Source: Clostridia bacterium
GTDB taxonomy: Bacteria; Bacillota; Clostridia; Oscillospirales; CAG-272
NCBI GenBank assembly: GCA_017428635.1
Contig: JAFRQK010000010.1
Location: 1-64,000 of the forward strand
Direction: 5' to 3'
DNA: 64,000 nucleotides
Part shown: piece after piece, positions 6,101-6,562 of the stretch
How positions within the stretch are numbered: the first letter of the stretch is position 1
Layout: each line of letters begins with the position of its first letter
Notes under the pieces: generated by a model
What the model saw: only the letters and a program-made list of their open reading frames with translations
What the model was told of the DNA's origin: nothing
Database searches by the model: none
Translations under genes and position numbers: made by a program

Positions 6101-6562
6101 GTTCAGTTTGAAGCTGGCCAGATTGTTCTTGTCTTTATAAAACTGCAGGTTTCCGGCCCAGGTCGGCAGATCCCCATACTCGTCAAAAGGATAGGTGTAC
6201 GTGATCGGCTCGCCCTCGCCTTCGCCGGGAAGCATAATAACGGTGAAGGAATCTGCGGGCAGAACGACCAGATACAGCGTGCTTTCCTCCCCGATCTCGT
6301 AATACGCAAGGGAGTGGACGTTATCTAAAAGCGCGCTGCCCAAATACAGCCGCTGACTGTCCGGAGCGTAGCCCTCCGCGTCCCGGATCTTCGCCTTGAC
6401 GGCTTCGATCGTATCGCTCGGTTCGACCGCAAGCGTTATCGTCCGCCCGTCGCCGTCCGCGACCGTCACCCGGACGAAGATCTCCATGGCGCCCGCCGTC
6501 GTCGGGATCAGCGGCAGAATAAACAGCGCCGCGATGACGAGCGATATGATGCGAACTTTCAT
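3200..6562 (-). CDS. Secreted multidomain surface protein with N-terminal ubiquitin-like domain
   Basis: 1120 aa. Signal peptide residues 1-25 end in TTAGA, so cleavage would leave Met26-Glu-Ile-Phe-Val as the mature N-terminus. Residues 26-101 are ubiquitin-like: over 61 gap-free positions, 35 match eukaryotic ubiquitin by my count, including TITL-VEPSDTIE-VKAKI and ESTL-LV. The C-terminal RLRGG is absent (LPADS instead). Next come a beta-rich InlB-like segment (about 105-195), a DUF6273-like domain (200-385; WWWLRS at 328, GVRPAF at 369), several Listeria-Bacteroides-type repeats (about 515-800), and a C-terminal domain of a type I associate with Clostridia surface proteins (GQIGVNFYADL; KDYVDYVL). 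No SLH or sorting signal is seen, so retention on the cell is uncertain. The start has GGGAGG 6 nt upstream, overlapping the stop region of the ImmA-like gene 3 nt away, which implies co-transcription with the phage repressor. Confidence 0.88.
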   Translation of the reverse strand: MKVRIISLVIAALFILPLIPTTAGAMEIFVRVTVADGDGRTITLAVEPSDTIEAVKAKIRDAEGYAPDSQRLYLGSALLDNVHSLAYYEIGEESTLYLVVLPADSFTVIMLPGEGEGEPITYTYPFDEYGDLPTWAGNLQFYKDKNNLASFKLNADYCPDSFIPQKNYLFDGWEGLKSLLHIVKGKPATVTAKWKLDRLNAYGPIEEIPAADGGNIYLGGIRWRVIGEKDQTRLLVSSDTLGDRLTWSEAEAYRDRIYDGFSALEKAAVIPTTKTDGEYTVEYSDLPGHYNPKTFQASELNGAKLFSLSAAETEYYLPTFEDRATGDWWWLRSRSADIPSNMGLIFDRGEFVSNYVDYLIDPDKGVAQGVRPAFQFDSSRVLFEYRAGSPKPGPGDGFYTYFAPNERFDAVLTLRDPDRSDFGVFREGSVCAGGKLTLQYWGAKNGPNEYISALICDTDEKPMYYASERSLGNGFASFDLPADLPGDEIILKVFNEQRNGQYETDYASEPKTFHISVVPGFRASFYNYDGSLLESGLFPEGTTPVYSGPTPVKPGDDPRLGYRFVGWDPEPGPITGSADYTAKFNREPVKTVTFAANGGSGTMENDSYFESEGKYRLPECGFTPPAGRVFVSWCAEYNNDDGSATVKYLSPGSLLTGLTSDVALRAEWKQLSLNVRPAGAGAAEFDPETGAFTATANPGYTFDRWEYSNGGADVVPEGMDWPEDNPFRPGSVDFRYYTAVFSRDPQELTVKANVAARGTVSYSVPGDAVETGRRITLTAAPSDGYVFKEWRTYPEGIHIDSQNRFYMPARDVTVTAVFEPENEPEFKTASLLLTGQIGVNFYADLSGLAETERENVAVVFSVNGKTFTDTLDATHTDPDGNGYYGFTCFVNSIEMADEINATLCYPDGDPVTFTYSVKDYVDYVLENTDDFPGNAVALVRAIADYGHYSQLYFEPVRDWTLGVDHVAMPAENKLDADDVAAAREETADAAAGFVPGDSEIVKAGFSLVLDSETALRIYLTPADGFDGDVGAVCDGKVLGCTRQESGRYLIEIPGITAFDLGDTFTVTVTAAEKDAVISLSPLAYVRAVLNKESGDAAQYLATALYRYYAAAKAYFENPNG

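Follow-up and report, generated by a model that had tools for sequence, protein, structure and literature searches.

A divergent ubiquitin domain heads a phage-linked fusion protein with a predicted signal peptide in a Clostridia bacterium

Textbooks present ubiquitin as a eukaryotic protein, and as a tag it is known chiefly from eukaryotes. We analyzed the gene for a ubiquitin fusion protein carried by a 64,000-nucleotide stretch of DNA from a Clostridia bacterium (contig JAFRQK010000010.1, positions 1 to 64,000; here called the window). The gene is an open frame on the minus strand (3200 to 6562) that starts at 6562, ends at 3200, and encodes 1,120 amino acids with both a ubiquitin domain and InlB-type repeats. 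Residues 1 to 25 (6488 to 6562, minus strand) form a predicted signal peptide, called solely from hydropathy and an A-x-A site, in which a hydrophobic leader runs to TTAGA immediately before Met26 and the sequence MEIFV. The ubiquitin domain occupies residues 26 to 102 (6257 to 6487, minus strand), as placed by Pfam, phmmer against PDB, and alignment, and four extra residues are inserted in its beta1-beta2 loop. The remainder of the protein (3203 to 6256, minus strand) is a scaffold in which Pfam detected InlB-type B-repeats, best at residues 749 to 821.

The original prediction, made from the DNA letters, had placed a ubiquitin-family domain at the mature N terminus of this protein, and the profile search that it called for supported this placement: PF00240 matched residues 30 to 100 with an E value of 4.6e-14 and 52.4 bits against a cut-off of 25.4, directly behind the leader that ends before MEIFV. 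The phmmer search of PDB with the domain returned single ubiquitin chains, from 2.5e-17. From Lys11 onward the domain aligned with ubiquitin without gaps at 35 identities in 61 positions, exactly the number predicted, compared to a mean of 4.0 and a maximum of 12 in 2,000 shuffles, and it was identical to human ubiquitin at 40 of 72 positions. The predicted residue assignments were each seen in the alignment, with Lys27 and Lys29 retained, Lys48 replaced by Ala, Lys63 by Glu, and Ile44 by Tyr; the changes in the Ile44 patch are L8T, I44Y, K48A, and H68Y. LPADS stands where the C-terminal RLRGG of a conjugatable modifier is expected, and with this tail gone, as had been claimed, the window ubiquitin would therefore be non-conjugatable. 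A frame error, the concern attached to the original prediction, is unlikely because the frame across the domain is also open in three relatives (loci L021 to L023). We conclude that the window domain is, as judged by its sequence, a genuine ubiquitin-family member, and from this homology it would be expected to adopt the beta-grasp fold. The E2 profile PF00179 matched none of 11 genomes and none of the controls as well.

Our analysis added three points to the original prediction: the loop insertion, a phage-type operon, and a wide family of relatives. A scan of species genomes with an alignment query gave 437 stretches that matched the search patterns, of which 284 encoded relatives, and 80 loci were kept; a single-sequence scan of genome contigs with the divergent window domain matched 137 stretches, none of which was confirmed. 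The layout resembled that of the window gene in 71 of the 80 loci, with a hydrophobic segment (a mean hydropathy of at least 1.8 over 10 residues) at most 45 residues upstream and a small residue immediately before ubiquitin Met1; among the exceptions, L058 has Ile for Met1, and the segment is missing in eight loci. When 67 leader-bearing proteins were searched with Pfam, ubiquitin was detected in all 67, an autotransporter barrel in 15, S-layer homology (SLH) domains in 6, and Por_Secre_tail, the sorting tail of the type IX secretion system, in 3. Other anchors were IPTL-CTERM in L050, a dockerin in L033, and LPXTG-like ends with a hydrophobic tail in five loci (L030, L040, L077, L083, and L096). 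In six autotransporters searched singly with Pfam (L029, L031, L043, L063, L071, and L098), ubiquitin was the sole passenger domain detected. NCBIfam searches gave Rad23 matches well under the cut-off and a single List_Bact_rpt match just over it. One of the 67 fusions (A5, not among ten scanned singly) also has a cyclophilin-like domain (PF18050, 1e-25). Past ABC-type genes, the sharing of neighbors was confined to small subgroups. Six loci (L030, L040, L051, L055, L083, and L086) have a neighboring gene family in common near the ubiquitin gene, and in five of these (L030, L040, L051, L055, and L083) the product was read as small, anchored or lipoprotein-like, and ending near NGA.

Ubiquitin fusions with export-type leaders form a sparse but wide set among prokaryotes. 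We counted PF00240 matches with E values up to 0.001 in genome samples, each of which contains its center genome, picked for having the gene (G000 for the samples of the window's family, order, and class). In the samples around the window, 7 genomes matched among 295 from the family, 5 among 394 from the order, and 7 among 391 from the class (5 above the cut-off). In the samples around other carriers, the matches numbered 7 among 197 genomes for the family of a Cohnella, 3 among 185 for the class of a Methylophilaceae metagenome-assembled genome (MAG) (2 above the cut-off), 4 among 145 for the phylum of a MAG with the title Akkermansia, 2 among 148 for the phylum of a Flavobacteriaceae MAG, and 3 among 190 for the class of a Sneathiella MAG; the 14 control genomes gave no match. 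Without the center genomes the rate was 0.7 to 3.1% across the eight sampled groups, and these rates cover more than exported fusions, the match in L124 being internal; most of the matches that were read, which lie above the cut-off, have an export leader. Of 12 genomes from the window's genus, 3 contained the window scaffold. A ubiquitin tree of 72 columns, in which 52 of 81 inner branches were left open and which served only for phylum labels and the grouping of the window with L021 to L023, had rows with 16 prokaryote phylum labels, many of them MAGs, so single labels may reflect binning errors. Isolates with such loci include Cohnella sp. OV330, Saccharibacillus endophyticus, Ruminococcus albus 8, Lachnospira multipara, Paracidovorax valerianellae, and Pseudovibrio denitrificans. 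For 25 of the 80 loci, the title includes an RGIG, RUG, Tb.RUG, or RUI code; the RGIG titles name ruminant stomachs, and we take the other three codes to denote rumen origin.

The ubiquitin part of these proteins is strongly conserved up to its tail. At least 60 of 72 positions were identical to human ubiquitin in 66 of 82 unique domains, and over all 82 the mean identity was 0.88 for residues 1 to 71 versus 0.27 for residues 73 to 76, with RLRGG intact in only 5; the window copy was the most divergent. By site class, the mean identity was 0.97 in the F4 patch, 0.95 in the core, 0.93 at lysines, 0.83 in the Ile44 patch, and 0.76 at other exposed sites, and in the 16 most divergent domains it was 0.885 in the F4 patch and 0.54 in the Ile44 patch. 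These values bear on the idea that ubiquitin has no partner and serves the scaffold only by capping it with a stable domain that folds fast or by aiding its export. Fusion to unrelated scaffolds and a well-kept core suit such a cap, which has no need, however, for lysines and an F4 face conserved like the core and above the other exposed sites, and we regard it as improbable. This objection is weakened by its use of presumed residue lists for the patches and by the fact that Lys27, Lys29, Lys63, and Glu64 lie inside the search patterns.

Among 46 sequences with at least 64 of 72 identities, the median proportion of synonymous differences (pS) was 0.88 and that of nonsynonymous differences (pN) was 0.085. 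The G+C content at third codon positions (GC3) of the ubiquitin part tracked that of the remainder of its gene (r = 0.84, n = 68). Separate transfers could also give this pattern of pS, pN, and GC3, and we therefore compared pairs that are homologous downstream as well, with duplicate loci removed, which left 33 pairs, not independent of one another, from 11 families. The pN/pS of the ubiquitin part was below that of the rest of the protein in 29 of the 33 pairs and in all pairs of nine families, although within those nine the tandem pair of L127 was nearly level (0.43 versus 0.45) and L072 and L085 were little diverged. The contrast was greatest in family F, in which L073 and L099 had a pS of 0.62 and a pN of 0.018 in ubiquitin and a pS of 0.38 and a pN of 0.244 downstream, for pN/pS ratios of 0.03 versus 0.64. 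This pN/pS comparison demonstrates tighter constraint on ubiquitin than on the parts fused to it in most of the families compared, the clade of the window itself being an exception.

Contamination with eukaryotic DNA, or a series of recent, functionless transfers, could be read into L047, a chain of four ubiquitins with no leader, and into the many hosts that are MAGs. Against this, for the main set, stand the in-frame leaders and bacterial anchors, the loci in isolates such as R. albus 8 and Cohnella and on a plasmid of R. albus 7, the matched GC3, and silent divergence with few amino acid changes within fusion families, and we consider this explanation very improbable indeed. Tandem ubiquitin-headed genes without a leader were also observed at L074, L079, L089, and L092; the genes that flank L089 and L092 have a bacterial look and follow nearly the same order. 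These leaderless genes possibly represent a cytoplasmic class rather than contamination.

In the ubiquitin tree the window joined L021 to L023 (branch value 96), on a long branch. Compared to L022, the window was 92% identical in nucleotides over the first 60 bases and 93 to 100% over the stretch profiled past ubiquitin but 73 to 80% inside ubiquitin, with the shift falling at the domain edges, and silent divergence (dS) was 0.37 in ubiquitin versus 0.07 in residues 103 to 420. For L021 versus L022 the pattern was reversed, with about 62% in the leader and 87 to 97% inside ubiquitin. The window ubiquitin thus looks like an exchanged cassette. Faster evolution of this ubiquitin alone was set aside in favor of such an exchange because silent divergence is raised too.

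The neighbors of the window gene are of phage type. Upstream on the same strand lie a gene for an ImmA/IrrE-like (M78) peptidase (6566 to 6985; PF06114, E value of 0.0015 and 18.8 bits, under the cut-off of 22) and an XRE/CI-type repressor gene of uncertain start (6954 to 7346; tested part, 6957 to 7286), which matched HTH_3 at 1e-16 and PHROG transcriptional regulators/repressors. The order is therefore XRE, ImmA-like, ubiquitin fusion, and beyond it, on the plus strand (8204 to 21389), profile matches identified phage structural and lysis genes for the terminase large subunit, portal, major head protein, internal virion protein, and endolysin. Only 3 bases separate the ImmA-like stop from the ubiquitin ATG, and the last codons of the ImmA-like gene contain GGGAGG, possibly a ribosome site. 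L021 is collinear with window positions 5606 to 13745 in four blocks at 85 to 87% identity, and its ImmA-ubiquitin junction is identical in kind. L023 retains 102 bp with 79% identity to the end of the ImmA-like gene, as would fit an origin from the phage arrangement. In the set of IMG/VR contigs, L106 has a leader-ubiquitin gene by terminase, portal, and head-protease genes and shares its ubiquitin with L107 and L108, and in others the ubiquitin gene lies by tail-fiber and virion-type genes (L102), a terminase gene (L134), or a tape-measure gene (L135). Near the phage genes, the window also encodes a fusion of serpin and SLH domains (24549 to 26558, plus strand), likely a surface-displayed protease inhibitor, and farther along there are type I restriction-modification genes (34978 to 43865, minus strand).

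We interpret the window protein as a divergent, phage-linked member of the exported prokaryotic ubiquitin fusions that would display non-conjugatable ubiquitin extracellularly as a binding ligand, and we assign this reading a probability of roughly 0.58. Cleavage of the predicted signal peptide would leave a ubiquitin head that starts at its own Met1 and forms the free end of an extracellular scaffold, and outside the cell this tail-less head would most likely serve as a folded binding ligand; in a lysogen, the gene would be expressed together with the repressor operon. Binding outside the cell is proposed because the ubiquitin is non-conjugatable and its Met1 is free at the tip of varied scaffolds. 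Several observations weigh against this interpretation. The domain scan recognized no anchor in the window scaffold. Ubiquitin pN/pS was the lower in only 1 of 3 pairs both in the L029 family and in the window clade, and between the window and L021 to L023 the constraint on ubiquitin and flank was about level for two of the three; moreover, alignment error in low-identity downstream repeats may inflate pN there, and the search patterns bias ubiquitin positions 25 to 32 and 56 to 64 towards conservation. In L022 and L023 the ubiquitin gene lies among other, non-phage genes, the window showed neither an integrase nor a phage end, and a search of 50,697 named phage records gave no match.

The closest known precedent for targets is BfUbb, the ubiquitin of Bacteroides fragilis, which makes both eukaryotic and bacterial kinds possible; a peptidyl-prolyl isomerase is reportedly one such target. 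BfUbb has, like the window protein as called from hydropathy and the A-x-A site, a signal peptide ending at ubiquitin Met1 and no terminal glycine (PMC3352274, PMC5705921); its discoverers did not detect it in other Bacteroides, it inhibited ubiquitination in vitro (PMC3352274), and it antagonizes other B. fragilis (PMC5705921). As described there, BfUbb is nevertheless standalone and 63% identical to human ubiquitin, whereas the window protein is a phage-linked fusion of 1,120 amino acids with 40 of 72 identities and its closest relatives in Clostridia. An antibacterial role, in which exported ubiquitin harms related bacteria as BfUbb does and anchors make the harm contact-dependent, would draw on the secretion of BfUbb with a mature start aligned to human Met1 and on the antagonism of some B. 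fragilis strains by synthetic BfUbb (PMC5705921), and phage linkage, sporadic spread (the scaffold in 3 of 12 genus genomes), and cassette-like exchange suit competition genes. Relatives near-identical to human ubiquitin across phyla would, however, be odd in a toxin for varied bacteria, and anchors would restrict its reach, so we hold this role to be unlikely.

Returning to the extracellular ligand, a conserved eukaryotic ubiquitin-binding partner (in protists or animal or plant hosts) is favored at about even odds for the near-human relatives, because the eukaryotic sequence is strongly conserved. The altered patch allows for a different partner in the window copy, for which a switch, possibly to a bacterial target like that of BfUbb, may be as likely. 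Of the functions and origins first proposed, a horizontally acquired binding module, perhaps carried by a phage, fits best, while host mimicry or a decoy is weakened here by the altered Ile44 patch; mimicry remains plausible for relatives, in view of the 66 near-human domains and a mean identity of 0.90 in their Ile44 patch. Eukaryotic ancestry with horizontal transfer would most simply explain the window domain, because the spread is sporadic and the relatives are close to human ubiquitin.

Other known systems share parts of this layout. A secreted ubiquitin of Globodera rostochiensis likewise has a signal peptide, ubiquitin, and a C-terminal extension, but it is a nematode effector with an extension of 12 amino acids (as described in PMC5705921). 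Bacterial ubiquitin-like conjugation in the anti-phage defense system CBASS is likewise reported as a ubiquitin-like system in bacteria (PMC10097602) but conjugates, whereas the window protein has a leader and no tail. WP_013483628.1, a "Ubiquitin family protein" on a Ruminococcus albus 7 plasmid, likewise has a leader, ubiquitin, and a downstream domain, but its ubiquitin is near-human and its annotation consists only of electronically inferred Gene Ontology terms. On R. albus 7 plasmid pRUMAL01 (L133, 3146 to 6273), a ubiquitin gene lies amid a run of leader-bearing small proteins, of which one matched SCPU (fimbria-like) weakly, under the cut-off, and another has an LPXTG-like end. A literature search, covering mostly titles and the starts of abstracts and few subscription journals, recognized no anchored bacterial ubiquitin fusions, including in the accessible portions of PMC5705921, PMC3352274, PMC4378268, and PMC1949818.

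More speculatively, and with a good deal less confidence, prokaryotes of many phyla, helped by phages, may expose eukaryote-derived ubiquitin on the cell surface for eukaryotic predators or hosts to read, the display being a lysogenic-conversion trait. The relatives, which are scattered through bacteria, look as if selection maintains them for a task outside the cell, and they raise a testable question: which extracellular partner binds bacterial ubiquitin?
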